Assembly (NCBI RefSeq): GCF_009912395.1
Contig: NZ_WNDO01000005.1
Coordinates: forward strand, 124,001-188,000
Length of the DNA: 64,000 bases
Origin: Luteibacter sp.
Lineage (GTDB): Bacteria; Pseudomonadota; Gammaproteobacteria; Xanthomonadales; Rhodanobacteraceae
Direction of reading: 5' to 3'
Shown: positions 36,902 through 55,482 of the stretch, in pieces
Position numbering within the stretch: position 1 is the first letter of the stretch
Layout of the letters: each line of letters begins with the position of its first letter
The notes under the pieces: model-generated
Seen by the model: the letters and a program-made list of their open reading frames with translations, nothing else
Database searches by the model: none
Told to the model about the DNA's origin: nothing
Position numbers and translations under genes: made by a program

Positions 36902-38939
36902 TTATGGCAGAGCGTCGATCCAGAACTCGCTCGCATGGATGCCGATGGCGCGCCCGTCGCCGGAGATACCTGCGTCTTTTGGCGACATGTAGCCTTCGAT
37001 GCCGATATCGAAATCGATACGGCCGTTTGCTACCGCGTCACAGGGCACATCCGTTTCCAGCAATGACGCCTCAGGCTTCACAATCGTCATATCGCCCAAC
37101 TGACGTGCGCCGGAACGAATGGATACCCGCATCTGTGGATTCCGGTCGGTGACATGTGGGATGAATCGCAGGTGGAAGCGGAAACCATGTCCGGTGCATT
37201 GGGGGACGGGACCGGCCAATTTCGCCATGGCTCCGTCGGTCCATGTGCCGTTCTCTTCTCGGGGGAACCAGCCTGCGCCGAGGAAGTTGGCTGAATTGAA
37301 GTCGGCGGCGTCCAGTTTGTAATGCACGCCCGGGCGAATCATCAGTCGGGCTGCTTCACGCTCGGCCGTGGTCAGGTGCAGATAGACGAAACGACGACCG
37401 TCTGGGATATGGCCCTGCCATTTCTCCGGATTGAATACGCGAGTAGGCAACGCGCTCAAATCATAGTCGCAGCGCTTGTTTACCGACGGCGTGATGGCCA
37501 TGTGCTGCCACTGGACGACCAGGATCTTTGCGCAATCCGGGCCGATGACGGCGAAGGTAACCGGATGATAGGACAGGGGCTCGCCTGTGAATCGGTCCGT
37601 GAAGATCTGCGGCGGCGGATCGTAGAAGTATGGCGCGCGGACCTGGATTAGCCTGGAGAGCGCCGTCGGTTTCATGTACACCTCATGCCGGCTGGGCTTG
37701 AAGTGCATGGCGGTGGCGGTCGTAGCAAGGATGAGTAGCACCAGGCCAATTCCCCGGACGATCCTGGAGGCAGGACGGAATCGGGAGAGTGCGAACGCAA
37801 GCAAGGGAACGAACAGGCCGATATACCAGGTGGCATACCGTGCTACGTGGACAGTGGCACCGGAATTCAGGTTGGTGGTCGAGGACGCGGCGAAAAGATT
37901 GGTCACCACGAAGACGCCGACGAATGCCAGGGTGATCGGCGCGGGGCGCGACTTGCGCATGACCGATGCGCCGAGCGCCAGTATCACCAGGCCCAGGGGC
38001 CAGTTGGGAAAAAGGCCGACATCGGGATCGATTACCCAAATCAGTGTGCTACCGATATTCGATCCGATGGAGGCTCCCCCCCGCCAGAAGCTGGGGATCG
38101 ATGACTCCGATGCGGGTAAAGAAGTACAGCGGATGTAGCGCGATCAATGCCAGCGTGGTGACGGCAAGGACGACATTCGAAAATTTTATGGGCTCCTTTC
38201 GGACTTTCCATGCTGCGATTGCTAGCAAGAATACCGACGTGGCGCCGATACTGATGTTCTGCGTGGAGGCGATCGCCAGCATTAGCGCGGCGACGAAATA
38301 GGATCGCCGGGAAAACACCACGGCGGCAATCGCTACGCAACAATACGTCAGGAACTCAGTGTGAACCTTGTCTACGAACCAGATCATCGGCGAGCCGATG
38401 GTGACAACAGCGGCGGCGAAGGCACCGATACGCCCGTAGGCGCGGGCCGAGACGTAGATCAGGGCTCCGAAAAGCAATGCGTGGAGGAAGATGAACGCGA
38501 GGTGTGCCCCGGCGCCAAAAAGAGAGAGCCAGCCGCCGGCTACCACGGCAAGCGCGGGATAGAACCAGAAATGATTGTAGTCCGCGCCGCTTTTCTGGAT
38601 AAGCGGGGGGAAGGCATCCCTCATCGTTTGCGTTGCAACGGCATCACGCAGGGTGCCGCTAGCGACGAGCTTGTCGTAGGCCACATAGGCCGGCTCGGTC
38701 ATGAAGGGGTGGTGCCCAACCTTGATGGCATAGTAAAGCGCGTAGTACTCCGAGCCATCTCCCACGCGAGTTGGCTTGAGTAGTGCACCGGTGAGAAATA
38801 TCAGGGCTAGACCGGCGAAGCCAAGTATAAGCGCCCATTTATTCGCAAGGGGAGAGATCCACGGATGAATATGCACGGCGTCCTTTCGGAGCCCTTTATC
38901 CTTGATGCTCTCGGATGAGTCAGTATCGCCAGGTCGCAT
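36902..38939 (-). pseudogene. Predicted GT-C membrane glycosyltransferase, frameshifted in a seven-G tract
   Basis: Two open frames belong to one protein. The upstream frame (38939-38049) gives 296 residues with about eight membrane segments and the early acidic loop VGDGSEYYALYY expected of GT-C enzymes. It leaves the frame at seven Cs (plus strand 38076-38082) and stops after GGSLHRIEYR. Removing one G from the coding strand continues the frame as GGASIGSNIGSTLIWVID and joins the remainder to 36902, restoring about 678 residues. The C-terminal third is soluble and beta-rich, with MSPKDAGISGDGRAIGI near the end, matching the end of the next upstream gene's product. The change could be an assembly error, a true mutation or an off state of a slipping tract. 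Confidence 0.75.
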
Positions 38940-38984
38940 GGTCAGCCATTTTCATGAAGGGTCGCCGGTTGTTCTCAACCGGTA

Positions 38985-40952
38985 TCAACGGAATTCGAGC
39001 TTGTCGAGCATGACGCCGAGATTGCGCGAATCGGAACTTATGCCGGCATCACGGGGTGAAAGGGCATCGGGCAAATCGAGTGAGAGCGTCAATGTATCCG
39101 ACGTACTGCGAGCGCTCTCTGGAATGGCGATGTCGATCTGTGTCGCCGTCGTCAGACTCCAGGTTCCGACGGGCACACCGTTCACGCTGATGGCGAGGTG
39201 TTGTGAGTGGCCTGAAGGACTGAAGGGCGAGACAGACAGGCGAAGGCTGCGCGGAAACACCATGCCTTGGGATGGATAGCGACAACGAAGAGTCGCGTGC
39301 TTGCCATCGGTCCAGCGGCCGGTATCGCCCGCCGAACTGACACCGGTCATCATGGTCTCTGGAAGGTGCCCTGATGAAGAAAAATCAAGGGTTTGACGAC
39401 AGACATCCGAGAATTTGGCCATGATGCACTGGCCGTCGCTTACGACGAAGCCGTCGCCTAATCGCGTTCGGATACATGAAGGATCCGACCATACGCTGGG
39501 ATGAGTCGTGGAGCTGAAGATGGCTCCGACCCTGGATGGTTCAGGGAAGTCGTGGTCGTAAAGCGGGGCGTAGCCATTGCCGTCGCGGGGCGATGAGAAA
39601 ACGGCAAGCGAGACCAGGTAATTGGCGACGTTGCTCATGTCTCCGACCACCAAACCGCGAGCATAGGCATGCATGGTGCCATCAACGGCCCCCGTGGCAC
39701 GCGCCACGCTGGCGGCGCTCTCCACGGCTAGGAATTCAGGTGCCGTCACTTCGCGATGGCTATGCGAAAACGTCAGCACCCACATGGCTGCAAGAATGAT
39801 TGCCGGCTGTAGCCAGCCCAGGAGTGGACGCTGGGTCGTGTGGGATGCAGCGTTCCGGCCAGACCGGATTATGACGATCAGCAGTGATATTTGGAGAAGA
39901 AGAAAGGTGGATAAACCGAATGCATACTTACGGCATGCGTATTCGGAGCCGATACCGAATCGGCTCGCAACGAGTTGCATGAGACATAGAGCGGCAATGG
40001 CTCCTCCAGCGCAACCCACATGCCTGGCAGCGACGGCGACCTTGCTCGCGTGCAAACGGCTGTAAGGCAAGGATACGTAGAGTAGCGTCGCGGACATCAG
40101 GGCGACGATCGTCGCCATGGCGGCCAGGCGGGGTAACGATGTCAGGAATGACAGGGGGAGATAACCGTTGTTGTCGCTGATCGTTCTCATCGCCATGAAG
40201 GCCGGGTGGCAATAAATGGCCAGGCCGGCCAGGATGGTAACGATCACGAGCGCGGGGAGGCGCTTCCATGCCTTGCCGGGATCAGAGATTGCGTACATTC
40301 CCAGAAGCATCAGCCCGTACGCGACGCCCTCAAGGGCCGGGAGCAGGTGTATCCCGGCGGCGAGGATGGCCAGTAGGACGGCGATGAGTGGCAGGGAGAA
40401 GCTACTCCCACGGGCACGCTCTACGAAGGCACATCCTGCGACGACCAGCATGAAGAAGGCTTGTCCAGCCAATTGGGGCAGAAAGTAATTTACGACGATC
40501 TCATGGCCGAACAGATCGAGCCTGGGATAGACGCGATTGACGGCCAGGAGGGCAAGCAGGCTCCCGACGAACAGCCAGGAACTCTTGCCGGGCAGGAGCC
40601 TTGACAGTGCGCCCACGGCGGCCCAGCACGCCACGAGGGACATCGTGGCGACGACCTGCATGCCAATGAATGGTGAATGGACAAACGCGGCGACGCAGGC
40701 CGCAAGGACATGCGCGTACCTTGGGTAGATCGCCATTTCTCCAAGGACGGGTGCGGCACCTGATCCGACGCCCCAGTGATCGTGGAGCCATCGAATCAAG
40801 GCGTAATGGTGCGCCACGTCCGGACTGGAGCTATATCCGTAAGGTACGGCCCGAATGAATATGAAGACGACCACGGCAAGCAAGGCGCTTACCGTGAGCC
40901 ATCCACCTCCCCGCGAGAATTTCTCTCGCAGCCGTCCATCGAGGGTGGCCAT
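38985..40952 (-). CDS. Predicted GT-C membrane glycosyltransferase (GT-C2)
   Basis: 655 residues. There are about ten hydrophobic helices between residues 20 and 410, and an early periplasmic loop with the acidic motif SSSPDVAHHYALIRW after the first helix, the place of the catalytic Asp in GT-C enzymes that use polyprenyl-phosphate sugars. The last 200 residues are soluble and beta-rich, ending SPRDAGISSDSRNLGVML, closely like the tail of the frameshifted neighbour. No Wzy or ligase signature was recognised. Substrate unknown; placement beside a polyprenyl-phosphate GT2 and a flippase-like protein supports periplasmic sugar transfer. Confidence 0.6.
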   Translation of the reverse strand: MATLDGRLREKFSRGGGWLTVSALLAVVVFIFIRAVPYGYSSSPDVAHHYALIRWLHDHWGVGSGAAPVLGEMAIYPRYAHVLAACVAAFVHSPFIGMQVVATMSLVACWAAVGALSRLLPGKSSWLFVGSLLALLAVNRVYPRLDLFGHEIVVNYFLPQLAGQAFFMLVVAGCAFVERARGSSFSLPLIAVLLAILAAGIHLLPALEGVAYGLMLLGMYAISDPGKAWKRLPALVIVTILAGLAIYCHPAFMAMRTISDNNGYLPLSFLTSLPRLAAMATIVALMSATLLYVSLPYSRLHASKVAVAARHVGCAGGAIAALCLMQLVASRFGIGSEYACRKYAFGLSTFLLLQISLLIVIIRSGRNAASHTTQRPLLGWLQPAIILAAMWVLTFSHSHREVTAPEFLAVESAASVARATGAVDGTMHAYARGLVVGDMSNVANYLVSLAVFSSPRDGNGYAPLYDHDFPEPSRVGAIFSSTTHPSVWSDPSCIRTRLGDGFVVSDGQCIMAKFSDVCRQTLDFSSSGHLPETMMTGVSSAGDTGRWTDGKHATLRCRYPSQGMVFPRSLRLSVSPFSPSGHSQHLAISVNGVPVGTWSLTTATQIDIAIPESARSTSDTLTLSLDLPDALSPRDAGISSDSRNLGVMLDKLEFR

Positions 40953-40958: not shown

Positions 40959-42293
40959 TCAATGGCCGCCGGGAGCAGGTGCGCCCAGTCGTTCAGCCAT
41001 GCGCTGACCTTCCCGAATGGCGTAATTGGTACCACGGTCTTCCGGATAGATTTGCGCCATCGTTGAGATCAAGGCATTTTCGTACGGGGTTTCTTCTGCC
41101 GGGACGTACTTCGAATAGCCTCGCTCGGTCACCGGCTGCGCATAGTCCGCACGCCAGATACGGAATTCCTTGATCCAGTCCCGGCGGAACTTCGGGAACA
41201 TGCGCTCGAGATGCGGCAACGCAAAGGCCAGGTATTCGTCATCCGACATGGACCACGTGGCATCGGAGGTGGCGAGGTAGCGAGAAAGAAAAACGATATG
41301 CCTGCCGGCGTAGTGCGAGCTGTCGTCCAGGTTGGTGTGTTCGATAACACCGACGAAGGGGAAGCCCGGATCGTTGACGTTGATCCAGTACGTGTCGGAA
41401 AGGCTGTGGGTGAGCTCCATCACCAGGCACACGTTTCCGAGATAATTGACCCGTTCCAGCGAGTCGATCCAGGCGCGCGGCGCATCCTTGAGGATCCTGG
41501 CGATGATCTTGAACGACGGTGTCAGCAGGAAATTGCTTGCCTGGACGTCGTCGTTAGGTGTCTGCAGCGCCTGGATGCGATTGCCTTCGGTAACGGCACC
41601 CGTGACCGGCGTGTTGTAGCGAATCTCGCCGCCCAGCGACACGATGCGATCGGCGATGGCTTCTGCGAGTCTGCCGAAACCGCCCCGGAAATAGGCGAGC
41701 TGTTCGCCGCCCTTGGTATCGCGCGTGCTGCCGCGGAGTACCAACTTCTTCCAGAACCATACGGCGTTGATGTCTTCCGCGAACACGGAAAACTTCGAGC
41801 GGATCAGCGGTTCCCAGACCAGTTCGAAAACTTTCTTTCCGCAAAGTGGCTCAAGCCACTCGCGGATGGTCAGGTGCTCGATTTCCTTCCAGTCTTTGAC
41901 CTTGCGCACCTGGAACACGAGCCAGCCGAGCCGAAGGCGATCAACGAACGGGAGCGGGCTAAAACGAAGGACGTCCAGTGGGGTCGAGAGTCGCCATAGA
42001 CGACCGTTGTAGTACATGCCGGTACGCGATGGGAGCGTCAGGATGAGATCGCTCAACCCCAGTTCTTCGACGAGCTTCGGAACGAAGGCATCGTTATTGA
42101 ACCAGTGGTGGTAGAACTTCTCGATGCGCACGCCATCGTCGAAGTCGAACGTACCCGCAAGCCCGCCTGCCGACGAATCGGATTCGAGGACGATGACTTT
42201 CTTGCCCGCCTGGGCAAGCCTCAGGCCAGCGACCAGGCCAGTGAAGCCGGCACCGACGATAGCGGTGTCATATGCGGTAGTGGGGTGCGTCAT
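40959..42293 (-). CDS. UDP-galactopyranose-mutase-like flavoprotein 1
   Basis: 444 residues. The N-terminal FAD-binding motif is AIVGAGFTGLVAGLRLAQAG, followed by VLESDSSAGGLAGTFDF and the aromatic motif KFYHHWFNNDAF. The C-terminal FAD contact is in IYPEDRGTNYAIREGQRMAE. The overall pattern is the amine-oxidase/mutase clan, but classical Glf residues are not all recognisable. In polysaccharide loci such enzymes sit beside GtrA or flippase-like genes and may interconvert ring forms or oxidise lipid-linked sugars; the reaction is not established. Its start overlaps the stop of the flippase-like gene by four bases. A paralogue is at 49700-51028. Confidence 0.7.
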   Translation of the reverse strand: MTHPTTAYDTAIVGAGFTGLVAGLRLAQAGKKVIVLESDSSAGGLAGTFDFDDGVRIEKFYHHWFNNDAFVPKLVEELGLSDLILTLPSRTGMYYNGRLWRLSTPLDVLRFSPLPFVDRLRLGWLVFQVRKVKDWKEIEHLTIREWLEPLCGKKVFELVWEPLIRSKFSVFAEDINAVWFWKKLVLRGSTRDTKGGEQLAYFRGGFGRLAEAIADRIVSLGGEIRYNTPVTGAVTEGNRIQALQTPNDDVQASNFLLTPSFKIIARILKDAPRAWIDSLERVNYLGNVCLVMELTHSLSDTYWINVNDPGFPFVGVIEHTNLDDSSHYAGRHIVFLSRYLATSDATWSMSDDEYLAFALPHLERMFPKFRRDWIKEFRIWRADYAQPVTERGYSKYVPAEETPYENALISTMAQIYPEDRGTNYAIREGQRMAERLGAPAPGGH

Positions 42294-43345
42294 GGCATGT
42301 CTCCGGAGACGTCGCGCGATGCTTGTGTGCGCGCCGCCTTGAACAGGTTACGGTTGAAAATCATGACGGTCGCACCTGCGATCGTCGTTGGAAGCCATAC
42401 GCCGAGATGGCACAGGACGGCGAGCGTCATGGCCTGCGAGGACGATCCACCCATGAGATGGGCCGCCGTGAAGGCCGCGAGATGATAGGGGCCCACGTAG
42501 CCAGGTGACGAAGGCACGAGCGTGGCGATGGTGGCCATGGACATCAGCAACAGGCCGCCAGGCAGGGAGAACGGCATGCCAATGCCCTGCATCAAGGCGA
42601 GGTATAGGCCAAGCTCGCCAGCCCAGGCTACAAAGGAAATGGCCAGTGCCGCAAAAATCGTCCTTAACCGCGATATGGCCTGAAGGGCTTCGCCAAGGTC
42701 TCCCAGAGCGTGGAGCAGATTCAGAACCTTTGGGGGTGCCTTGTTCGTCAGGCTTTTTTCCAGCCAACGGATGGATTTCACCACCAGGCCCGTGAACAGG
42801 ATCAACCCGAGCAGTGCGATGCTGCCGAGTACCGCCAATACAAGGACGATATCCACAACCGAGGCCGGAAGGGCGCCCTTTGGGAAAAACGAGCCGGCCA
42901 GGGCAAGGCAGATCAGCAGGGTGAGCAGGTCGACAAGACGCTCCAGTACCAGCGTAGCGGTCGCGCCTGTTTTCGTGACACCCAGGGCAGCTGGAAAAAC
43001 CAGCGCTCGAACAACGTCACCCAGGCGGAAGGGTAGTACGTTATTCAGGGCGATGGACGCAAGGAACGGGCTTGCGCAAGCCGCGGTGCTTACCTTGGGG
43101 CCGCAGGCTTCCAACAGCATTTTCCAGCGGTGGATACGTGCGGTGTAACCGATGGCGAGCGATAAGACGCCCACCACCAGGTACGGCCAGTGGAACGTTT
43201 CCAGGGCGCGCTCGACTTCATTGAATCGAATGTTGCGGAATACGAAGTATAAGCAGACGGCAGAAAGCGCACAGCCAATTACCAGGCGGAGCCAGCCGCC
43301 TTTTTTCTTGGTGCCTGAGGTTTCGATAAGGGTTTCGCTCGACAT
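42290..43345 (-). CDS. Flippase-like membrane protein (LPG-synthase-TM/AglD family)
   Basis: 351 residues with seven to eight membrane helices and the family blocks WPYLVVGVLSLAIGYTARIHRW, NNVLPFRLGDVVRAL, ERLVDLLTLL and the closing LVPSSPGYVGPYHLAAF (positions where PF03706 proteins conserve Arg, Glu and the PGG/PGY turn). The soluble lysyl transferase domain of MprF is absent. Members without it are thought to act on or move polyprenyl-linked sugars, but proof is limited. The ATG at 43345 lies two bases after the rfbF stop and its own stop overlaps the flavoprotein gene, so the block is tightly coupled. Confidence 0.75.
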   Translation of the reverse strand: MSSETLIETSGTKKKGGWLRLVIGCALSAVCLYFVFRNIRFNEVERALETFHWPYLVVGVLSLAIGYTARIHRWKMLLEACGPKVSTAACASPFLASIALNNVLPFRLGDVVRALVFPAALGVTKTGATATLVLERLVDLLTLLICLALAGSFFPKGALPASVVDIVLVLAVLGSIALLGLILFTGLVVKSIRWLEKSLTNKAPPKVLNLLHALGDLGEALQAISRLRTIFAALAISFVAWAGELGLYLALMQGIGMPFSLPGGLLLMSMATIATLVPSSPGYVGPYHLAAFTAAHLMGGSSSQAMTLAVLCHLGVWLPTTIAGATVMIFNRNLFKAARTQASRDVSGDMP

Positions 43346-43347: not shown

Positions 43348-44115
43348 TCAGGGCTTCCAGGGTGCCTTGTCGGCGTCCCACAAGGATTGCAGTTCCCGCT
43401 TGTCGCGCAGCGTGTCGCACGGCTGCCAGAAGCCGTGATGCTGGAATGCCATGAGTTCGCCATCCCGGGCAAGGTTGGCCAAGGGCGCTCGTTCAAATGA
43501 CGTATCGTCGCCAGCGATGTAGTCCAGGGCTTTAGGTTCGAGGACGAAGAAGCCGCCGTTGATCCAGCCGATCTCATCCTGGGGCTTCTCTTCGAAGCTT
43601 GTAACGTTGGCACTTGCGCCCATGTTGAGCACGCCGAATCGGCCCGGCGGCTGCACCGCCGCGACGGTTGCGAGCTTGCCATGATTTCGATGGAAGGCCA
43701 GTTCGGCCGAGATATCGATGTCCGACAGGCCGTCACCATACGTGAGGCAGAAGGTTTCTTCGCCGAGGTACTCGCGAACTCGTTTAACGCGACCACCCGT
43801 CATCGTGTCCTGCCCCGTATCGATGAGTGTGATCTTCCAGTCTTCCGCCTGGCTGTTCAGCACGGCAGTTTCACCCGTGCGAAGGTTGATCTCGAGGTCG
43901 GCCGTATGGCGATAGTAATTGAAGAAATATTCCTTGATGACATAGCCCTTGTAGCCGAGGCAGATCACGAAGTCCTTCACCCCATGCTTGGCGTAGCTCT
44001 TCATGATGTGCCACAGGAGAGGGCGACCGCCGATCTCGACCATCGGCTTGGGTTTGTAGTCGGATTCTTCGGCGATGCGTGTGCCGAGGCCGCCAGCGAG
44101 AATAACTGCCTTCAT
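43348..44115 (-). CDS. rfbF: Glucose-1-phosphate cytidylyltransferase
   Basis: 255 residues. It makes CDP-glucose from glucose 1-phosphate and CTP. Seen: AVILAGGLGTRIAEESDYKP, PKPMVEIGGRPLLWHIMKSY, FVICLGYKGYVIKEYFFNY, YGDGLSDIDI and WINGGFFVLEPKALDYI, all typical of RfbF. The CDP-glucose is then used by RfbG two genes upstream. The RfbH dehydrase that leads to 3,6-dideoxyhexoses is not present in the island, so the product is more likely a CDP-6-deoxyhexose. Confidence 0.93.
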   Translation of the reverse strand: MKAVILAGGLGTRIAEESDYKPKPMVEIGGRPLLWHIMKSYAKHGVKDFVICLGYKGYVIKEYFFNYYRHTADLEINLRTGETAVLNSQAEDWKITLIDTGQDTMTGGRVKRVREYLGEETFCLTYGDGLSDIDISAELAFHRNHGKLATVAAVQPPGRFGVLNMGASANVTSFEEKPQDEIGWINGGFFVLEPKALDYIAGDDTSFERAPLANLARDGELMAFQHHGFWQPCDTLRDKRELQSLWDADKAPWKP

Positions 44116-44126: not shown

Positions 44127-45086
44127 TTAGAGTTTGATGTCGTTGGGAGCAAGGTTCAGGGCATCCTGAACGATAGCGATGGGTTCGCGCCGGAGTATCC
44201 GGTAGATCCTCAGCAGGTACTCGCCGAGTATGCCAAGCAAAAGCGATTGAAAGCCAATGCCGAACAGAATGAGGATGTGGAGGCTTGCGAGGCCCCGGGG
44301 TAGATCGGGAAAGATCAGCTTCAGCACGAGATAATAAATGGCGCCGATAGCAGATAACGAGAGAATGGCGATGCCCGCCACCGTCGCCAGGCGAAGCGGG
44401 ATCAGCGAGTGATTGAATACGCCCGTCAGTCCGAGTCGAATCAGTTGGGCGACACCGAACTTGCTGGATCCAGCGACGTGAGCGGCGCGATCGTATGTCA
44501 GGCCAATCTGCCGGAAGCCCATGCCCGCGATGAGTCCGCGCAGGTAAGGTTCGGCGGATCTCTGCTCGGCTAGCGCCTGGATTACCTTGCGGTCCACGAG
44601 GCGAAAATCACCGGCATTACGCGGAATGGGATGCTCGCTGATTCGGTCGATGAACCAGTAGCCGACCTTGCGGAACGAGTGGATGAGCTTGCCTTCTGGC
44701 CGCGCCCTGCGCACCCCATACACGACGTGGTAACCCTGCTTCCAAAGCGCGAGGAATTCCTTGAGCAGTTCGGGCGGATCCTGGAGATCCGCATCGATTT
44801 GCAGGACCGCATCTCCACGGGTGTGGAGATAGTTGGCAAGGATCGAGCGCTGAAAGCCGAAATTCTTTGAAAAACGAATTGCCCGAATGCGCTGGTCCTT
44901 CGCGGCCAGTGCCTCCAACATGCTCCACGTGCTGTCCGTAGAGCAGTTATCGCTGAAAACGAATTCCAGCTCGCACTCATTGGCAAGGGAGTGTGCCAAG
45001 GCGTCGAGGCGTGCATACAGCGCTTCGATATTTCCTTCTTCGTTGAAGACGGGAATGGCGATCGAAATCAGGGGTAATGCGTTCAT
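44127..45086 (-). CDS. GT2 polyprenyl-phosphate glycosyltransferase (GtrB/ArnC-like)
   Basis: 319 residues. The GT-A domain has ISIAIPVFNEEGNIEALY, FVFSDNCSTDSTWSML, the donor motif QIDADLQDPPEL and an acceptor-side RNAGDFRLVDRKV. Two membrane helices end the protein (VAGIAILSLSAIGAIYYLVL and GIGFQSLLLGILGEYLL). This is the layout of enzymes that load one sugar onto undecaprenyl phosphate in the cytoplasm. The donor is probably the CDP-sugar made by its operon neighbours, an inference. The ATG at 45086 overlaps the preceding stop by four bases; the open frame upstream of it is spurious. Confidence 0.87.
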   Translation of the reverse strand: MNALPLISIAIPVFNEEGNIEALYARLDALAHSLANECELEFVFSDNCSTDSTWSMLEALAAKDQRIRAIRFSKNFGFQRSILANYLHTRGDAVLQIDADLQDPPELLKEFLALWKQGYHVVYGVRRARPEGKLIHSFRKVGYWFIDRISEHPIPRNAGDFRLVDRKVIQALAEQRSAEPYLRGLIAGMGFRQIGLTYDRAAHVAGSSKFGVAQLIRLGLTGVFNHSLIPLRLATVAGIAILSLSAIGAIYYLVLKLIFPDLPRGLASLHILILFGIGFQSLLLGILGEYLLRIYRILRREPIAIVQDALNLAPNDIKL

Positions 45087-47253: not shown

Positions 47254-49278
47254 TCATTCATAGGTCAGACCGATACCGCGGATATCCAGGGGTGGATGGG
47301 AGGTGGAGCCCGTGGCATCTCGTTCAGGACGGGACGCATCATCCGTTGGGGACAGCTCGACGGTCGTGATCTGGCTCCGATTCCATAGGGTTGCCGGAAT
47401 TCGGACGCTGACGGGCCCGTGCTGTTCAACCGCTTGTATACCCACATCCTGGCCATTGACTTTGACTGTGACTGGCACGTCTTTTGCGTGGGGGGTGGAT
47501 GCCACCTCGACCTGCAATACGACCGCATTCTGTGCGGAGCGCGACCGAAACTGAAGGTATACCGTCCCATCGACGTAAGCTGGCTGGGGGGACGACACCG
47601 GATCGGGTAATCCGAACGCTGCCAGTGTGCAGTCCTTTCGTAGAGCGGCGAGGGACTTGATGGCCCCTTCCAGTTCTGCAATGGGCGTCGTCGCGGTGAT
47701 ATGGCAGTACATGGTGGAAGAGAACCTGCGCGTGGCCATGATGTTGCCGGCGCTGCCCACCTCCCAGACATCCACACGATCGCCTGCCGCCCGTATTGCG
47801 TGCTCATTGAATGCGTGTCTATACCCGAAAACGTAGGCCCACTGGGATGGGACCTGGAACTCGGATCCGGAGCGGTAGGCCCAGGTAGCCAGCGCTACCG
47901 TGGCAGGCCAATTCTCAACCGCGGACTGGTTGATGAGTGCCATGCGACCCGTATAGGGCAGCTGCGTGGATGGGGTCTGGTCGAAGGCGTTCGACTCACT
48001 GTTGATCGGCTCCCTGGGCATCAGGGTGGCGACGACGATGACCATCAGCCAGGCTAGCGAGGGGGGGAGCGGCCCGGTCAATACGGGGCCTGTCAGCATG
48101 GCCAATGCCGAGACGGTGGTCGCCGCCATGACAAAAATGATGCCGTACACGAAGTAGGAGTTGAATTCGAACAGTTGCCCGGTGATTCGACTAGACCACA
48201 CGCAAGAGAGCGCTACAGCCAGCAGGCAGAAACCGACCGTCATCCGCAGTGCCTGAGCGCCGCGGTCACCGGGGTGGCGGCGTGCCACGATGGTGGTGAT
48301 GGCGAACGCGCCGATGCAGGCGAGCACCATGGCCAGCACGCGACGGGTCAGGAGTCCGATGTGCGGCAGGCCGCTTATGCCCTCCGGATGGTGATCGAAA
48401 ATGAACAGCGATGCGATGGCGTTGATGGCTTGAGCCCAGCTCGGGCGCTCTCCGCCGCCACGTTTTACATAGTCCAGGATTCGGGCGGCGTTGCAGTCGG
48501 GGCATCGCCCCAGGTCGATGACGATAGGTAACAGGAAGATCGCCATAATGAGGAGCGAGACAAGTAGCGGCTTGATGGCCTTACGCAGGATGGCGGAAGG
48601 AGATGAGCCTTCGCGACGGCATGCTTGTGCGTAGAAGGCTACCGCCACGAGCAACGGGGGGATTGACATGAGCGGTTGCGCGACATGCCCATGGCAAAGG
48701 ATGCATACCATCAGGACCGACAATGGAAGCATGTTCAGCCTGCCGCAGGCTAGGAAGCTGCAGGCGACAAGAAGGAGGATATATGGCCCAAGCAGCACAT
48801 GGGGCATCCACACGCTGGCAATGGCGTTGCCGGCGTACGTCAGGACGATGGTGGCGACGATGATCAGCAGAGGCAGCACCACGGCGCGTCGCGTCGTGGT
48901 AGCAAGAAGACTGATGGCGCCAGCGATGAGGCCTGACTGGAGAAGAATGCCGGCCAAGATATCGGCCTGGTGCGCAGACGCGACAAGATGGGCCACGTCG
49001 TGGAATAACCACTGTCCGCCTGCGTACCAATAGAAAAAAAACGGTCCGGGATGATTGAAGCCCCAGCGCGAATAATTTCCATACAGGTCTGAAAAAGACC
49101 TCGCATCGATGATGTTGAGCGCATTGGCGCCGATGTCACCGACTTCCATGATCGGCGGACCGAAAAGGAAGGTCGCATGTTGCGTGATGACAAAGGCCGC
49201 GATAAGCGCGGTTACGAAAGCGAAAATGCCCCAGGAGAACCGGCTGGGATGCTGGATGGTCATGGTATCGATACCCAT
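47254..49278 (-). CDS. Predicted GT-C membrane glycosyltransferase (GT-C3)
   Basis: About 674 residues from the ATG at 49278; an ATG five codons later is equally possible, as neither has a strong ribosome site. The first membrane helix is followed by GPPIMEVGDIGANALNIID and RWGFNHPGPFFFYWYAGGQW, with an acidic residue in the first periplasmic loop as in GT-C enzymes. About ten further helices run to residue 450. The last 220 residues are soluble and beta-rich, ending DIRGIGLTY. It follows gtrA by 17 bases and closes the DprE-type cassette, so a transferase using polyprenyl-phosphate pentose is a reasonable guess. The coding strand has an eight-T run (plus strand 49034-49041) in the Phe-Phe-Phe codons. 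Confidence 0.6.
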   Translation of the reverse strand: MGIDTMTIQHPSRFSWGIFAFVTALIAAFVITQHATFLFGPPIMEVGDIGANALNIIDARSFSDLYGNYSRWGFNHPGPFFFYWYAGGQWLFHDVAHLVASAHQADILAGILLQSGLIAGAISLLATTTRRAVVLPLLIIVATIVLTYAGNAIASVWMPHVLLGPYILLLVACSFLACGRLNMLPLSVLMVCILCHGHVAQPLMSIPPLLVAVAFYAQACRREGSSPSAILRKAIKPLLVSLLIMAIFLLPIVIDLGRCPDCNAARILDYVKRGGGERPSWAQAINAIASLFIFDHHPEGISGLPHIGLLTRRVLAMVLACIGAFAITTIVARRHPGDRGAQALRMTVGFCLLAVALSCVWSSRITGQLFEFNSYFVYGIIFVMAATTVSALAMLTGPVLTGPLPPSLAWLMVIVVATLMPREPINSESNAFDQTPSTQLPYTGRMALINQSAVENWPATVALATWAYRSGSEFQVPSQWAYVFGYRHAFNEHAIRAAGDRVDVWEVGSAGNIMATRRFSSTMYCHITATTPIAELEGAIKSLAALRKDCTLAAFGLPDPVSSPQPAYVDGTVYLQFRSRSAQNAVVLQVEVASTPHAKDVPVTVKVNGQDVGIQAVEQHGPVSVRIPATLWNRSQITTVELSPTDDASRPERDATGSTSHPPLDIRGIGLTYE

Positions 49279-49295: not shown

Positions 49296-49703
49296 TCAGC
49301 GAAAGGAAAGGTGTTTGTGGCCGAGGTAGCTGGTCACGACCGGGACAGCCACGCCGACCGCATGGGCGCAAAGCTCGGGGTACCAGGACCATCCGATCAA
49401 TGGCAGGAACCAACGGGCCAGAAGCAAGCTTATTGCCAATGTCTGGATGACGGCGAACAGATTCACCACTACGAACCAGACGGCCTGGCGGCCTACGGAG
49501 TGCGCACTCGCCTGGAATACAAGGCGGCGATTGAGGTAGAAGGCGGTGATCATGCCCAGGCAGTACGCGACGACGATCGCGGGCGCATAGGCCATCATCT
49601 GGCTTAGCGCGATGCGAGAGCCGAAGTTGACCACTGCGGCAAAACCACCAACCGCCAGGAATTTCAGAAAGCGTATATGAGCAGGAGACAGGGCGCGGAT
49701 CAT
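49296..49703 (-). CDS. GtrA-family membrane protein
   Basis: 135 residues, four membrane helices: [60 protein letters not shown] and [20 protein letters not shown]. The NRRLVF and HKHLSF ends of helices 2 and 4 are the family hallmark. GtrA proteins are linked to movement of polyprenyl-phosphate sugars across the inner membrane; a GtrA homologue (Rv3789) also accompanies dprE1/dprE2 in mycobacteria. Its ATG overlaps the flavoprotein stop by four bases. Confidence 0.88.
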
Positions 49704-51028
49704 GCCGATCCTGCGCCCTGATCCACCTGAACAGGGGACGCCACGGCCTCCCGGGCCATCATCCGGCCGAAATCGATGCTTTCGGAGATGCCTCGATCCT
49801 CGGGGTAATAGTGCGACGTGTCCGCGGCCCAGAGTCCCTGAACGGGTAACTTTCGGAACGGAATGTCATCCAGGTACCCCGGCGGACAGATCGGCTGGGC
49901 ATAGCGATATCGGCTGGCGCGAATGTCGATGAAGTCGGCATCCGTCAGCCCCGGATTGATGGTCTTGAGATAACGTTTCACCTTCGCGGTGAAGACCTCA
50001 TCGGCATCGCCATACTTCGGGTGCTCACCCGGCATGTAGAAGGGAACATAGATGATGTGCGCATCGAGCGGACGAAGATTGGTGTACTCGACCAATCCTG
50101 GGATATCCATGTCTTCGTCGTTGACGTTCAACCAGAAGTTTTCCGTCACGGCTTTCTTCAACTTGGCGATGACGCATACGACAGCGATGTTCTTTAGGCG
50201 GGAATATTGTTCCAGGATATCCGGCGGCAGGTCGGGCATCAGCCGGGGAACCAGGGGTAGCGGTGTCGTGCTGATCACTTTCTCGAACGACTCAAGCCCC
50301 TGCGCGGTTTCGACGCCCATGACGGCGCCGTCGTTCATGACGACTTTCTTAACCGGGCTGGATAGCCGGAACTCTCCTCCGTGGGCCTCGATCCAGGATT
50401 GCATGGTCTTGAGGAGCGTTTCGGATCCTCCGTCGAGATAACCGAGTTTTTCGCGGAAGATGTCGTATCGCGAGTTGCCTATACGACGGATTCGACTCCA
50501 TATCCAGGCAGCGGAAAGGTTGTCGCTGTAGTCGTAGAATTTGTAGTCGAAAAGGCGCCGCCAGAGGACGTTCCATGCCTCCTCGCCGACCCAGCGGCGG
50601 ATCCATCCTGTCGCTTCGACATGATCCAGGGGCCGCCAATCCTTGCGCTTGGTCGAAAAAAACGCGTGCAGGCCGTAGCGAATCTTGGCGATCAGGCCAA
50701 GACCCTTGAAGCGCAGCAGGGCCATGGGGTTTCCCCAGGGCTGCAGGCGCTTTTGATACCAATAACCCATCCGAGTTTCCGTCCATCGCATACGGTCCGA
50801 AAGACCCAGCTCGGACAGGACATCCAGGAACCCTCGATCCGAAGTGCAATGGAAATGGTAGTAGCGCTCGATCTGAAGGCCCGAGAAATCGAACGTGGCG
50901 GTCATCCCACCGACACGGTCGTCAGCCTCGAATACCACCGGTTGGTGTCCGTCGCGGACCAGCTGGTAGGCGACGGCCAAGCCCATCGGGCCCGCTCCGA
51001 TGACGGCAATGCGTTGTGGCTTGTTCAT
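49700..51028 (-). CDS. UDP-galactopyranose-mutase-like flavoprotein 2
   Basis: 442 residues. FAD motif [20 protein letters not shown], then [35 protein letters not shown], and the C-terminal [20 protein letters not shown]. Blocks such as the ring of aromatic residues after the FAD motif, [16 protein letters not shown] and the PEDRG end are shared with the flavoprotein at 40959, so the two are paralogues. GGAAAA lies seven bases before the ATG at 51028. Probable role: oxidoreduction or ring isomerisation of a sugar intermediate; substrate unknown. Confidence 0.7.
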
Positions 51029-51042: not shown

Positions 51043-51987
51043 TCAGCGCTTGAGGACGATGGCCGAATAGCGCGGATCGCAATAGCTCTCACGCACGGCC
51101 TCGGCAAAGGACGTCTGGGTTACGCCGAAGATTTGCGCTGTATCGACGCCTTTGAAGTCATCCCCTGCGCTGAGTGCTTTCAATTGATCGGCGGTGAAGG
51201 GGGGTTTTCCGCTAAACAATGCATATACCTTGAGGAGAAATGCGAAAAGCCCGTAGGGAATATGTACGATGGCGGTACGGAGCCCCTTCGCTTTCTTGAT
51301 TGTCCGGATAATGTCGACATAGTCGATTCGGGTATCACCCACGACGTCGTAGATCTCGCCATTGCGCTCGCGAAGAATGCAATCGACGATGCAGCGGCAA
51401 AAATCGCGCTCATACAAGGGCTGCCGCATGTAGCGGCCGTCACCGGGTATGGGGAATACGGGGGTTCGGGCCATGAATCGCGATAGCCAGCCAAAATGCT
51501 TCGGATCGAACCAGCCGAACATCAGCGTGGGGCGCAGCACGCAGTGCCGCATACCCGAGGAAACGACGAGTTCCTCTTGCGCCCGCTTGGTCTCAGTGTA
51601 GTCGTCCACCGCCACGGAGATCACCACCGACGAGCTGATATGGACGATGTAAGGCGTTCCGTGCCGTTGGGCTGCCGCCAGTACCAGGCGCGTAGCATCA
51701 ATATTATTGCGTATGAATACATCACGAAATTTGCTGGTGATCTGGGCATGCAATTGGACTAGGCAATCCGCACCCTCGAAGGCTTGTTCCCAGTCGCCGG
51801 GCACGGCCAGATCGGCCTGGATGACTTCGACGTCCGGATGGAGCTGTCGAAGGATGCCCAGGTTGTATTCGTGCTTGTCGATCGCGACGATTCGAACGAA
51901 TCCATGACTCTTCAGTTCGACGATAAGATTCTGTCCGACCAGTCCGGCGGCACCCGTAATGACGATCTTGCTGTGTTCGCTAGGCAT
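51043..51987 (-). CDS. NAD-dependent epimerase/dehydratase of the DprE cassette
   Basis: 314 residues, extended SDR. Seen: [20 protein letters not shown], a Tyr-x-x-x-Lys in [26 protein letters not shown] and [16 protein letters not shown]. Its ATG follows the SDR stop by two bases without a ribosome site of its own, so it depends on coupling. It is not needed in the known PRPP-to-arabinofuranose route, so it may act on a further modification of the sugar. The substrate cannot be predicted. Confidence 0.75.
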
Positions 51988-51989
51988 GG

Positions 51990-52727
51990 TCAGAGACGGA
52001 GACGTTTGAAGATGGATTCGGGAATACTGCGAATGATGATCATGATGCCTTGCCAGAACCATGGCAGGTAAACGCTCGACAGCCTCTTATCCAGGGCGTT
52101 GACAATGCCACTAGCGACCGCGGATGGCTTCGCCCATAGCGCACCTTTCTTGAAGTCCCTGGTCATGGGTGTATCCACGAAGCCGGGTTTGATTGTCAGG
52201 ACATTTACGCCGTGATGCGAGAGCCGCTGCCGTAGGCCACTCAGGAACGTGGTGACGGCAGCCTTCGCCGAACCATATAGATAGTTATTGGCTCGCCCAC
52301 GGTCTCCAGCCACGGAGGATATGACGGCGATGCTGCCTTTCCCGGCCTGCTCCATGCGTTGGGCGGCGAGGGTCAACAATGCGATGGTCGAGGTCGCGTT
52401 CGTAGCGAACTCCCGAAGGGCGATGTCGACGGCTATCTCGCACTGGTGCTGGTCCGGTAGCGTGCCATGAGCGATCAGCAGGACGTCGATACCTCCGAGT
52501 TCGTTCCAGGCGCGGTCTAACATCGATGCGTGCTCCTGGATCTCGTTGACGTCCAGGCTTGCGTGACCGACAGCGACTGCACCGCGGACACCAAGGTCGT
52601 CCGCCATGGCCTGGAGCTTGCTGGAAGAGCGTCCCCACAGGAACAGCCGCGCCCCCCGCTTCGCGTAAATGCGGGCGACAGCTTCTGCGATAGCCGATGT
52701 CGCGCCGATGATGAGCACTCGTTGCAT
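51990..52727 (-). CDS. dprE2: DprE2-like short-chain dehydrogenase
   Basis: 245 residues, classical SDR. Seen: VLIIGATSAIAEAVARIYAK, LLIAHGTLPDQ, AVISSVAGDRGRANNYLYGS with YxxxK completed by AKAAV, then TIKPGFVDTPMT and the tail VYLPWFWQGIMIIIRSIPES, a membrane-associating helix as in DprE2. It should reduce the 2-keto lipid-linked pentofuranose produced by DprE1, giving polyprenyl-phosphoryl-arabinose. The assignment rests on these motifs plus its position directly after the DprE1 homologue, with two bases between stop and ATG. Confidence 0.85.
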   Translation of the reverse strand: MQRVLIIGATSAIAEAVARIYAKRGARLFLWGRSSSKLQAMADDLGVRGAVAVGHASLDVNEIQEHASMLDRAWNELGGIDVLLIAHGTLPDQHQCEIAVDIALREFATNATSTIALLTLAAQRMEQAGKGSIAVISSVAGDRGRANNYLYGSAKAAVTTFLSGLRQRLSHHGVNVLTIKPGFVDTPMTRDFKKGALWAKPSAVASGIVNALDKRLSSVYLPWFWQGIMIIIRSIPESIFKRLRL

Positions 52728-52729
52728 GG

Positions 52730-54037
52730 TTACTCCGTGACCCTGCGCCAGAAGCTTGACGACAAACCGGGGTCGATGAATCGGGAGAATGCCTCCCACG
52801 ATGGATAATATTTGCGGAAGCTCGGGCCGCTCATCCGCGCATCTTTGGCGGGATATACGGCTCCACCCACGTCGGCGACGATGGCGTCGAGACGATCCAG
52901 CAATGGGAGCGTGCGCTGGTCCCCCAAGGGAAAGTCCAGCGCCAGTGTCGTGCCTTCGCGCGGAAAGGACAGCAGGCCGCAGGACGGCTTGGCGCCGAAT
53001 TGCTTGAGCACGGCAAGGAAGGAGCCGCCGCCTTCGTTACCTATGGTTCGCACCAGCTCTCTCATGGTGGTTTCCGCCGCCGTAGGCGGCACCACACACT
53101 GGTACTGGACGAAACCCTTCGGCCCGTAGATCCGATTCCAGTCGGAGATACCGTCGAGCGGGTAGAAAAATGGCTGGTAGTGGACCGTATCGTGGCGGAC
53201 GCTCTTGCGCTGACGATGATAGTAAAGCCAGTTGAAAATGCGCAGGCTGTACGGGTTGATCAGGGAAAGAGGCGGCGTTACGGGTACGCCGATGCGTTGC
53301 CGGGGAGGGCTTGCCGGTGCGTCCGACGGATTTGGCGCGTGGTTGGCCCGGCTGAACAGTCCACGACCCAGGGCATTTCCTTGTGCCGCGCAGTCGATCC
53401 AAGACACCGTGTATTCGTAGTCCTGATTCGATGCCTGGGACAACTCGAAGAACGTATCCAGGTTGGCGAACCGATGGCTCTCGGCAGACATCCATGGGCT
53501 GGCAATGCGGCGCAGGGCGATAGTGGCCCATGTGATCACGCCGGTCAGCCCTAGGCCGCCTATCGTGGCGGAGAACCAGTCGGACTGTTCGTCAGGAGAA
53601 CACCGGATGCGGCTTCCATCCGTGCGGAGGAGTTCAAAGGCCAGAACGTGATGGCCAAACGTCCCGGCGCGATGATGGTTCTTGCCATGCACATCGTTGG
53701 CGATGGCGCCTCCGACAGTAATGAAGCGTGTCCCTGGGGTGACCGGCAGAAACCAGCCCTGCGGAACGACAAGGTCCAGGATGTCGGAAAACAGGACACC
53801 GGCTTCGCAGGTCAGGATGCCTGTGGTGGGATCGAAGGCGATGAAGCGATCCAGTCCTCGTATGGCATACAGCGTGCCCCCGTCGTTCAGGCAACTATCG
53901 CCATAGCTTCTGGCGTTGCCGATCGGCAGCGCGAACCCGTGATCGGGTTGGGGAAGGGGTGCATGTCGATCGAGCAAGGTGACGACCTGCTCGGTCGTCA
54001 CGGGATAGCGCCCCCATGAGCGTCCCACCCGGCGCAT
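52730..54037 (-). CDS. dprE1: DprE1-like FAD-dependent polyprenylphosphoryl-ribose 2'-oxidase
   Basis: 435 residues. The VAO-type FAD domain has GNARSYGDSCLNDGG, PGTRFITVGGAIANDVHGKN followed by HHRAGTFGHH, and GGLGLTGVITWATI. The substrate domain has YPLDGISDWNRIYGPKGFVQ, SFLAVLKQFG, ALDFPLGD and VYPAKDARMSG. These blocks match mycobacterial DprE1 as I recall it; Lys398 fits the essential Lys418, while Ala366 stands where the mycobacterial enzyme has Cys387. It oxidises the 2'-OH of polyprenyl-phosphoryl-ribose at the inner membrane. The start shares one base with the UbiA stop. Confidence 0.88.
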   Translation of the reverse strand: MRRVGRSWGRYPVTTEQVVTLLDRHAPLPQPDHGFALPIGNARSYGDSCLNDGGTLYAIRGLDRFIAFDPTTGILTCEAGVLFSDILDLVVPQGWFLPVTPGTRFITVGGAIANDVHGKNHHRAGTFGHHVLAFELLRTDGSRIRCSPDEQSDWFSATIGGLGLTGVITWATIALRRIASPWMSAESHRFANLDTFFELSQASNQDYEYTVSWIDCAAQGNALGRGLFSRANHAPNPSDAPASPPRQRIGVPVTPPLSLINPYSLRIFNWLYYHRQRKSVRHDTVHYQPFFYPLDGISDWNRIYGPKGFVQYQCVVPPTAAETTMRELVRTIGNEGGGSFLAVLKQFGAKPSCGLLSFPREGTTLALDFPLGDQRTLPLLDRLDAIVADVGGAVYPAKDARMSGPSFRKYYPSWEAFSRFIDPGLSSSFWRRVTE

Positions 54038-55482
54038 CAGATCGCCGACCCGACAATGACCGCGGCTATGACACCCAGGATGCGGCTAGTCTTGTCCATG
54101 ACAGCGAACACGACGGGATCGTCGTGCATGACACCTCGGTGCGCTATGGCCCAGGTCCGGCTTATCCAGTAAAGCAGTAACGGACAAAGCATCCACAGGT
54201 AATGGGGATGCCGATAGAGCGAGAGGCTCGCTGTGCTCTCAACGTAAAGCGCGAGCACAAGCACCGCCATGTAGCCACTGGCGCTTCCCATGGACTGGAT
54301 GAGAGGGATATCGTCCACATCGTATCCGCGTCCACTGGCCTGGACCTTGCCGGCGGACTGGAGGGTCAGAAGTTCGACATAGCGCTTCACCATCGCGAGG
54401 CTCAGGAATATGAACATCGAGAAGGCAAGCAGCCAGAACGACGGTTTGGAATGAATGGCGGCGGTTCCGGCCAGTATCCGCGTGGTGTAGAGACCTGCCA
54501 GCACTACCACGTCGAGCATCATGATGCGTTTCAAACGTACGGAGTATGCCGTGGTCAGTACGTAATACCCGGCGAGCACGGCGATAAAATGATAGGGGAG
54601 CAGGGTAGACAGGGCGAAGGCTGTCACCAAGAGCAGGACGGCCACCGCGGGACCTGCCGCTAGCGGCAGGTTACCCGCTGCGAAGGGACGGTGACGTTTG
54701 CGGTGATGCTGTCGATCGGCGGCAAGATCGAGTAGATCGTTGGTGAGGTACACGCTGGACGCGCAGAGTCCGAACGTAAGGAATGCAAGTACGGAAGCGG
54801 AGAGGGCTTCTACATCGAATACACGATGGGAGGCCAGCAGGGGCAGGAACACGAGTACGTTCTTGATCCACTGGTGTATGCGAAGCGCCTTGGCCCAGGC
54901 ACGGGGGCCTCCACGTCGGATGACAAAACGTCTTTCGACGGCGCTCACTTTGGCGGCTGCCGTGGACAAGGCATGGCCGTGCTCCACCACGAGCGCTGCA
55001 TGCGCGTGTTGCCACACCATCAGGTCGACCGGTGCATTGCCGACGTAGTCGAACCCCTTCTCGCCGAAACGTTCCGTCAGGATGCGTGCTTTATTCGCGC
55101 CCGCGAGATTCAGTTGACCGTCACTGGCTAGGACCTCGTCGAAGACGCCGACGTGGGTGGCCACCGGGGCTGCGAGCATCGCATCGGAGGCGGTACACAG
55201 GACGATGCGGCGATAGCCGCGCTGCTCCCGCAACCAGTCGATAATTTCGTGGTTATAGGGCAGCGCGGCAGGATTCAGCTCGACGCGAAGGGCGATTTGT
55301 TGCTTGAGGTAGGCTTTGCCGCGGAGCAACCAGACAAGCATCAGGAAAAATGCAAAAGGCTGACGCGCCAGCAGCATCAACGCGGATTCCACTAGTAAGT
55401 CCGAACGGATCAGCGTTCCGTCAAGATCCACGCAGAGTGGGATTCCTTCTGCTTTTGTGTTGTCCATCGCGACGTACACCAT
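54037..55482 (-). CDS. HAD phosphatase-UbiA fusion, polyprenyl-phosphate phosphoribosyltransferase-like
   Basis: 481 residues (an ATG five codons later is an alternative; neither start has a good ribosome site). Residues 15-185 form a HAD domain with the nucleophile motif VDLDGTLIRSD, VLCTASDAML and DYVGNAPVDLMVW. Residues 195-481 form a UbiA domain: LRIHQWIKN, the first Asp motif NDLLDLAADRQHHRKRHRP, the second YSVRLKRIMMLDVVVLAG, and about eight helices. These fit the Rv3806c type, which moves phosphoribose from PRPP to decaprenyl phosphate. The fused HAD could then remove the 5-phosphate, combining two steps in one protein. It is the first gene of the reverse arm. Confidence 0.83.
   Translation of the reverse strand: MVYVAMDNTKAEGIPLCVDLDGTLIRSDLLVESALMLLARQPFAFFLMLVWLLRGKAYLKQQIALRVELNPAALPYNHEIIDWLREQRGYRRIVLCTASDAMLAAPVATHVGVFDEVLASDGQLNLAGANKARILTERFGEKGFDYVGNAPVDLMVWQHAHAALVVEHGHALSTAAAKVSAVERRFVIRRGGPRAWAKALRIHQWIKNVLVFLPLLASHRVFDVEALSASVLAFLTFGLCASSVYLTNDLLDLAADRQHHRKRHRPFAAGNLPLAAGPAVAVLLLVTAFALSTLLPYHFIAVLAGYYVLTTAYSVRLKRIMMLDVVVLAGLYTTRILAGTAAIHSKPSFWLLAFSMFIFLSLAMVKRYVELLTLQSAGKVQASGRGYDVDDIPLIQSMGSASGYMAVLVLALYVESTASLSLYRHPHYLWMLCPLLLYWISRTWAIAHRGVMHDDPVVFAVMDKTSRILGVIAAVIVGSAI

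Follow-up and report, generated by a model that had tools for sequence, protein, structure and literature searches.

How might a single O-antigen locus decorate one polysaccharide chain with two different sugars, and which enzymes would prepare them? The question is raised by a 64,000-nucleotide stretch of Luteibacter sp. DNA (assembly GCF_009912395.1; hereafter the window), which lies within a 224.5-kb contig of a 5.39-Mb genome. The reverse arm of its O-antigen island carries two neighbouring sets of genes for lipid-linked sugars, both on the minus strand (Table 1). Module 1 (47254-55482) runs in the order HAD-UbiA, DprE1, DprE2, SDR1 (a short-chain dehydrogenase/reductase, SDR), FLAV1 (a flavoprotein), GtrA and a GT-C glycosyltransferase. 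Module 2 (36902-47115) comprises RfbG, SDR2, GT2, RfbF, a flippase-like protein, FLAV2, a 655-residue membrane protein and an interrupted gene. An original prediction, made from the sequence and its open reading frames (ORFs), had read the island as encoding an ABC-exported rhamnan decorated in the periplasm with two lipid-linked sugars, a pentofuranose among them. ORF, Pfam and NCBIfam searches recovered every reverse-arm gene it named, in the predicted order and on the predicted strand, and we consider it likely that both sets do serve to decorate the chain in the periplasm, each drawing on modified lipid-linked sugars. The prediction needs refining in two respects: the two halves are exchangeable, and module 1 may end in a sugar other than a pentofuranose, since it has an SDR and a flavoprotein besides DprE1 and DprE2. 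The division into modules is well supported; the sugar identities proposed below are predictions.

Congeners carry the two halves separately. FLAV1 and FLAV2 both match NF005560, the profile of the PRK07233 family, and a search of 61 genomes with this profile gave matches over the cut-off in 20, with two matches only in the window's genome. The genus accounts for 23 of the genomes searched, the window's own included: six are of module-1 type, six of module-2 type, the window's genome has both, and ten have no match over the cut-off, cassette type being judged from the single PRK07233 match and the stretch around it. Nineteen relatives were fetched. All 13 module-1-type loci among them contain HAD-UbiA, DprE1, DprE2, SDR1 and GtrA, and all six module-2-type loci contain GT2, the flippase-like protein, RfbF and RfbG. 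Alignment with the congener locus L043 gave four matching blocks across 32927-47119, the next match being etfA at 55566; in L043 itself 140 bases separate the end of the module-2 match from etfA. rfbG also adjoins etfA in L042, L044, L045 and L046, and positions 47120-55565 of the window form an extra segment relative to L042-L046. Relative to these five congeners, module 1 is inserted between rfbG and etfA. L047, the sixth module-2 congener, has etfBA at the opposite end of the module, so the island is rearranged there.

Module 1 opens with its predicted loader. The UbiA part of HAD-UbiA matches the solved decaprenyl-phosphate phosphoribosyltransferase 8j8j (E 4.7e-26), while the HAD domain (PF12710) is barely above its cut-off. 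Residues 36-423 of the 435 in the DprE1 homologue align with the solved mycobacterial enzyme, and the HGKNHH and AKDxR segments are retained. Judged by sequence, it and its DprE2 partner are homologues and not members of the curated equivalog pair NF053785 and NF053786, scoring 363 of 500 and 185 of 250 bits respectively. In SDR1, the residues S118-S120, Y130 and K134 are conserved at 95% or above across 61 aligned rows. The GT-C protein, whose start was set at an ATG 50 codons into a 719-residue ORF, has no Pfam family above the cut-off, and a profile search against solved sequences returned short chance matches only. A fold search succeeded, and the fold model is that of a GT-C enzyme with a carbohydrate-binding module (CBM); of the three GT-C proteins originally predicted, this is the one that was modelled. 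None of the scanned module-1 proteins matches the MATE family, and the flippase candidate of the cassette is GtrA.

That this gene set is not a chance assembly is evident from its recurrence across many genera and on plasmids, as well as from the separation of the halves in congeners. FLAV1 was followed through 80 named loci, the best 80 of 86 in which peptides of the window's FLAV1 occur exactly, and hence near relatives. SDR1 lies beside FLAV1 in 79 of them, and HAD-UbiA, DprE1, DprE2 and SDR1 occur together in 69. GtrA is found in 75, a count taken from BLAST, as the GtrA profile run on stop-to-stop ORFs also matches overlapping frames. The sole locus without SDR1, L067, is a stretch that begins 179 bases before the match. 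Whole genomes were examined for seven of the 11 incomplete loci (all but L073, L108, L119 and L121). Four of these genomes do have DprE1 (E up to 1e-30), and the cassette of L129 begins just beyond its stretch (L173); DprE1 was not found in the other three, two of which are metagenome-assembled genomes of 1.3 and 2.8 Mb and the third that of Massilia brevitalea (L069).

Plasmids from Agrobacterium salinitolerans, Rhizobium tumorigenes and Burkholderia stagnalis carry the six cassette genes in a row; the annotations read UbiA prenyltransferase, FAD-binding oxidoreductase, SDR, epimerase (a second SDR in some cases), NAD(P)/FAD-dependent oxidoreductase and GtrA. The A. salinitolerans plasmid, pDG3-1a (L175, 4512-10694), is typed as conjugative, so the cassette may move between strains. 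A link between the cassette and L-xylose was looked for in Azospirillum, on whose plasmids FLAV1 was not found, and no named locus among those with FLAV1 peptides is from Ralstonia, which is no proof of absence there. L037-L041, L048 and L049 represent a further FLAV1 lineage, accompanied by the same partners; the flavoprotein there is 45-49% and SDR1 71-77% identical to that of the window. A natural mix of the two modules exists in Massilia brevitalea (L069, 8846-15435), in which RfbG, an SDR2-like protein, GT2 and RfbF come after SDR1, FLAV1 and GtrA; the genome gave no DprE1 or HAD-UbiA match. This arrangement looks recent, since the L069 FLAV1 is nested in the tree among Massilia sequences that have HAD-UbiA.

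The converse sampling started from HAD-UbiA. A class-wide search gave matches in 85 of 369 genomes, 45 of them over the cut-off, from which 25 full-length loci were taken; nine of the ten over-cut-off loci from the order of genome G097 were added, the tenth being already included. DprE1 and DprE2 are both present in 15 of the 25 class-wide loci and in three of the nine (one of these, L187, was scored DprE2-positive at 236 bits, below the 250-bit limit applied to the larger set), and SDR1 and FLAV1 in three and one, respectively. All four loci with SDR1 and FLAV1 therefore fall among the 18 with DprE1 and DprE2 (4/18 against 0/16), a difference that, with only four cases, is weak alone. The sampled loci are related, so the counts are not independent events, and several stretches end at contig ends, where absence is not proof. 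Full-score SDR1 and FLAV1 are never apart in the 34 loci. With SDR1 in view as a possible counterpart of the Citrobacter ORF13 (xylofuranose) epimerase, a motif filter was applied to the nine loci from the G097 order; it identified no SDR-only neighbour, and one candidate that was inspected, L185, was a GT2. Taken together with the 69 FLAV1 loci, the 4/18 distribution points to SDR1 and FLAV1 acting once C2 has been inverted.

The two flavoproteins are only 27% identical to each other, yet both exceed the curated PRK07233 cut-off of 252 bits. They had been predicted to be mutase-like, and this holds for the fold: that of UDP-galactopyranose mutase is shared, though the fold search does not discriminate, and the closest solved fold is phytoene desaturase. 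At sequence level the mutase identity was rejected: FLAV2 scores 24.5 of the 303.75 bits required for TIGR00031, and for FLAV1, TIGR00031 is absent from the best 25 of 43 families listed. Among the relatives listed, most source names are 'protoporphyrinogen oxidase' or 'NAD(P)/FAD-dependent oxidoreductase', and one FLAV2-like protein (P0121) is called UDP-galactopyranose mutase. Polar residues including H61, K166, R190, E196, N304, N306, D307 and E317 are invariant in 71 rows spanning both subfamilies.

PRK07233 proteins are sparse, occurring in eight of 299 genomes of the window's phylum (its own included), in three of 190 genomes of the class of G211, and in two archaea among 14 control genomes. 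Among the seven other matches in the phylum, five (L041, L138-L141) have FLAV1 near HAD-UbiA, DprE1, DprE2, SDR1 and GtrA; a sixth (G203) has SDR1-FLAV1-GtrA at the start of a contig and HAD-UbiA with DprE1 on a different contig; and the seventh (L142) has GT2 and a flippase-like protein. The three in the class of G211 are the L142 genome, L163, in which FLAV2 lies at a contig end with no loader in view, and L164. The protein of L164 (9012-10412) is a distant PRK07233 member with no clear polyprenyl-phosphate sugar loader, and the family evidently exceeds two subfamilies. In the order of Massilia, three of 250 genomes (L170-L172) have a FLAV2 match at E 1e-100. A FLAV2-type gene accompanies GT2 and a flippase-like gene in L142 and L170-L172, and GT2 and FLAV2 occur together in a 15.3-kb stretch of an Embleya plasmid (L178).

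This distribution bears on what the family does. No ORF in the roughly 20-kb stretches of L142, L170, L171 and L172 has an SDR match or SDR motif. SDR2 is present in the window and in six congeners, but its presence there may be explained by the RfbG product, which would need a reductase. Because FLAV2-type genes occur in those four stretches without a reductase partner, a redox-neutral isomerase fits better than a DprE1-like oxidase. In a flavoprotein tree, 11 GT2-linked FLAV2-type rows (with one of unknown type) split from the other 99, and the GT2 label requires three changes, against a shuffled mean of 11.6; the loader type thus tracks the flavoprotein tree, in which 15 rows without a visible loader are uninformative, some branches are long and L164 is badly placed. 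Our proposal is that the substrates of PRK07233 enzymes are polyprenyl-phosphate sugars and that the reaction is probably a ring isomerisation.

In module 2, GT2 is the likely loader. It resembles the glycosyltransferase sll0501, which we take to be a GtrB, and also matches the ArnC-type transferase 9hwj (E 5.8e-33). The nearest solved structures to SDR2 are sugar-nucleotide dehydratases, reductases and epimerases. No RfbH-type family appears among the Pfam matches of the scanned module-2 ORFs, so a CDP-6-deoxyhexose is expected in place of a dideoxyhexose. The 655-residue membrane protein has no Pfam family above the cut-off; full-length relatives, 40-58% identical, exist in five of the six module-2 congeners, and the sixth is matched in its C-terminal part only. 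The two ORFs downstream align with residues 36-325 and 354-715 of a single 715-residue ORF in L043, and this large membrane-protein gene is interrupted in the present assembly, where mutation and sequence error cannot be told apart. Both proteins are proposed to be GT-C enzymes from their hydropathy and mutual homology. Of the two GT-C genes originally predicted for this module, the second is broken into two ORFs.

A pathway can be proposed from these assignments. Cytoplasmic polymerisation would yield a D-rhamnan O-antigen, Wzm/Wzt would export it, and the two modules would then decorate it independently in the periplasm. In module 1, HAD-UbiA is predicted to transfer ribose 5-phosphate from phosphoribosyl pyrophosphate (PRPP) onto undecaprenyl phosphate (UndP) and then remove the 5-phosphate. 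DprE1 and DprE2 would invert C2, converting UndP-D-ribofuranose into UndP-D-arabinofuranose. FLAV1 would most likely expand the ring to give UndP-D-arabinopyranose, and SDR1 would most likely invert C4 to give UndP-L-xylopyranose. L-xylose is D-arabinose inverted at C4, and an epimerase can reach C4 only in the pyranose ring. For a set of DprE1/DprE2, one SDR and one flavoprotein, L-xylopyranose would be the simplest naturally known product. GtrA may then flip the lipid-linked sugar, and the GT-C enzyme with its CBM may attach it to the rhamnan. In module 2, RfbF, RfbG and SDR2 are proposed to make a CDP-6-deoxyhexose, which GT2 would load onto UndP. FLAV2, with no SDR partner of its own, would alter the loaded sugar, most likely from pyranose to furanose; the PF03706 protein would flip it and one or both GT-C proteins attach it. 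A 6-deoxyhexofuranose product is a guess by analogy with module 1. We put the L-xylose and ring-isomerase steps forward tentatively, as possible but doubtful.

Precedents exist for several of these features. A partially L-xylosylated L-rhamnan is reportedly produced by a Xanthomonas pathovar, going by the title of a cited work. In Ralstonia solanacearum, non-stoichiometric beta-L-xylopyranose branches on an L-Rha/GlcNAc chain are described in the available text of PMC10450222, and such non-stoichiometric branching fits addition after polymerisation. alpha-D-Fucofuranose is cited in the accessible part of PMC10888714 as a component of the Pseudomonas syringae pv. phaseolicola O-polysaccharide. 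In Citrobacter, UbiA-type loading from PRPP, an SDR choosing between ribofuranose and xylofuranose, and GT-C transfer are reported, with DprE1/DprE2 homologues assigned to arabinofuranose and one SDR to xylofuranose (PMC11127046, available text). The accessible text of a study of lipopolysaccharide (LPS) mutants of strain Xac 306 (PMC3391215) makes no mention of xylose, gtrA, xac3596, a prenyltransferase or a side chain, and has rhamnose once, in its references.

Other readings of the same genes have to be weighed against this pathway. DprE1 and DprE2 without SDR1 and FLAV1 are the commoner arrangement beside HAD-UbiA (14 of the 34 loci, against four), and the arabinofuranose assignment in the part of PMC11127046 just cited points the same way. 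Module 1 might on this evidence deliver plain D-arabinofuranose, with SDR1 and FLAV1 serving another step, for instance the acceptor or another donor. We regard this as very unlikely, given that the two accompany UbiA, DprE1 and DprE2 in 69 of the 80 FLAV1 loci and that the gene order is the same on plasmids of three genera. Alternatively, FLAV1 and SDR1 could form a second oxidase/reductase pair like DprE1/DprE2 and invert C3. The flavin oxidase-type fold and the conserved catalytic residues of the SDR suit such a pair, and C3 inversion on top of DprE1/DprE2 would yield D-lyxofuranose, for which both inversions are needed according to the same text. FLAV2 belongs to the same family and lacks a nearby SDR in the four stretches checked, which makes the lyxose route, though slightly better placed than plain arabinofuranose, still quite improbable.

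It is also conceivable that PRK07233 proteins modify the polyprenyl chain and not the sugar, for example by saturation or by isomerisation near the phosphate. The closest solved fold is a polyprenoid enzyme, both subfamilies accompany polyprenyl-phosphate loaders, and the family extends to archaea. The pairing of SDR1 with subfamily 1 in 79 of 80 loci suggests sugar chemistry instead, and the invariant polar residues suit a polar ligand, their placement in the site aside; we think chain modification unlikely. Somewhat less unlikely is that just one module works, its neighbour having been left over from module exchange at the etfA end. Congeners have one type or the other, and one of the large membrane-protein genes of module 2 is interrupted here. 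The remaining ORFs of both modules are open, however, and another proposed GT-C of module 2 is intact.

The island that houses them is bracketed by metB (22947, Cys_Met_Meta_PP) and etfA/etfB (55566 and 56530), and, as in the xanthomonad type of LPS locus, its LPS genes form two convergent arms running from metB to etfA. The forward arm encodes a Wzm/Wzt exporter, a prediction borne out by its Pfam matches. Together with manC, the forward-arm set would make a D-rhamnose chain for ABC export, as judged from pathway knowledge and leaving the repeat structure aside. For the RMD-like SDR, the solved structures matched include a GDP-6-deoxy-D-mannose reductase (E 1.1e-39), the top match being an unnamed putative epimerase. 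Beyond etfAB lie a second double-GT4 protein of 929 residues (57445-60234), a relative of which occupies the same position in L043, a further GT4-type protein (60464-61849) and an ETF-ubiquinone oxidoreductase gene (61726-63495). Upstream of the island, an acyltransferase-3/SGNH fusion (7975-10311) is of a type able to O-acylate surface sugars.

Table 1. Genes of the O-antigen island with their proposed roles and the matches behind them.
Feature	Position	Strand	Evidence
Wzm and Wzt (with Wzt_C domain), ABC exporter	24183..26203	+	PF01061, PF00005, PF14524
FkbM methyltransferase and double-GT4 glycosyltransferase, backbone	26164..30992	+	PF05050; two PF00534 stretches
Gmd, RMD-like, PMM and ManC, GDP-D-rhamnose supply	31072..35866	+ (ManC -)	TIGR01472, TIGR01479 over cut-off; PMM domains
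Interrupted gene (ORFs 38049-38939 and 36902-37987), proposed second module-2 GT-C	36902..38939	-	alignment to L043
Membrane protein, 655 aa, proposed GT-C	38985..40952	-	10 hydropathy peaks, then long C-terminal part
FLAV2, PRK07233 flavoprotein subfamily 2	40959..42293	-	NF005560 504 bits
Flippase-like membrane protein	42290..43345	-	PF03706, E 5e-48; TIGR00374 over cut-off
RfbF, glucose-1-phosphate cytidylyltransferase	43348..44115	-	TIGR02623 407 bits, cut-off 300
GT2, putative module-2 polyprenyl-phosphate sugar loader (GtrB/ArnC-like)	44127..45086	-	solved sll0501, E 5.7e-60
SDR2, proposed 4-keto-6-deoxyhexose reductase	45083..46018	-	PF01370
RfbG, CDP-glucose 4,6-dehydratase	46018..47115	-	TIGR02622 444 bits, cut-off 278
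GT-C glycosyltransferase with C-terminal CBM (predicted)	47254..49263	-	fold model
GtrA-type candidate flippase	49296..49703	-	PF04138, E 1.3e-19
FLAV1, PRK07233 flavoprotein subfamily 1	49700..51028	-	NF005560 562 bits; model pLDDT 91.3
SDR1, epimerase-like extended SDR	51043..51987	-	PF01370
DprE2 homologue, reductase of C2 epimerase pair	51990..52727	-	NF005489 334 bits, cut-off 267
DprE1 homologue, oxidase of C2 epimerase pair	52730..54037	-	solved mycobacterial DprE1, E 1e-69
HAD-UbiA fusion, polyprenyl-phosphate phosphoribosyltransferase with phosphatase domain, module-1 loader	54037..55482	-	NF006088 659 bits, cut-off 351

A 2007 study of Xanthomonas already listed the kinds of gene found in module 1, and a 2024 paper described the general pathway. 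As far as the literature was searched, the new features are the two stacked modules, the recognition of the six-gene cassette as one unit and the presence of one flavoprotein family in both modules, as would be the predictions of L-xylose and of a lipid-linked mutase; among the open-literature matches listed, no title or abstract opening ties PRK07233 or a DprE1/DprE2-SDR-flavoprotein cassette to L-xylose. If the predictions hold, which we consider doubtful at present, PRK07233 would be a new class of sugar mutase, changing ring size on a polyprenyl-phosphate carrier and not on nucleotide sugars, with a route to L-xylose in module 1 and a lipid-linked 6-deoxyhexofuranose in the GT2 cassette. 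An uncharacterised flavoprotein family would thereby receive a class of function and a definite predicted substrate, and the pentofuranose pathway of 2024 would grow by two enzymes whose genes recur, as part of a six-gene cassette, in many genera. Module 1 may be the so far unexplained route to the L-xylose of bacterial surface sugars, the origin of which becomes testable. More generally, the locus indicates that O-antigen side-chain chemistry evolves through the exchange and stacking of whole donor-synthesis modules beside etfA.

Several characterised systems resemble parts of the island. Neither flavoprotein belongs to the sequence family of UDP-galactopyranose mutase or Fcf2, and the proposed substrates are polyprenyl-phosphate linked, not nucleotide linked. 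Module 2 has the GtrB-like loader of GtrABC O-antigen glucosylation, along with a candidate flippase and, going by hydropathy, a proposed GT-C; it differs in its CDP-6-deoxyhexose supply, in having a PF03706 protein instead of GtrA, and in its flavoprotein. The mycobacterial decaprenylphosphoryl-arabinose pathway resembles module 1 in its UbiA loader, DprE1, DprE2, SMR-type candidate flippase and Emb/Aft-type GT-C transferases. In module 1, by contrast, a HAD phosphatase is fused to UbiA, SDR1 and FLAV1 are extra, DprE1 and DprE2 fall below the mycobacterial equivalog cut-offs, and the proposed target is an O-antigen.

Closer to the window is the metB-etfA locus of Xanthomonas oryzae BXO8 and X. 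axonopodis pv. citri 306 (PMC2238763, 2007), which is flanked by the same genes. The table given there includes a prenyltransferase (481 aa), an oxidoreductase, a short-chain dehydrogenase, an epimerase, a 'protoporphyrinogen oxidase', a GtrA-like protein and unknown membrane proteins, the very gene kinds of module 1; the available text neither proposes a pathway nor names a CDP-6-deoxyhexose/GT2 module. The functional prototype is the three-component pentofuranose system of Citrobacter youngae O1/O2, in which Wzm/Wzt, GDP-Rha genes, UbiA-PRP and a GT-C plus CBM were demonstrated through mutants and in vitro assays (PMC11127046, PNAS 2024, available text). As described there, it shares with the island an ABC-exported Man/Rha chain, GDP-Rha genes, a UbiA loader with a HAD phosphatase domain, a GT-C with a C-terminal CBM and an auxiliary pentose-setting epimerase. 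The island differs in that GtrA replaces the MATE flippase, DprE1/DprE2 and an SDR occur together, a PRK07233 flavoprotein is added, and a second, unrelated module lies alongside. Module 1 is thus a variant of the three-component system and not its prototype: it has the loader and, according to the fold model, the GT-C with CBM, and GtrA may fill the role that the MATE flippase has in Citrobacter.

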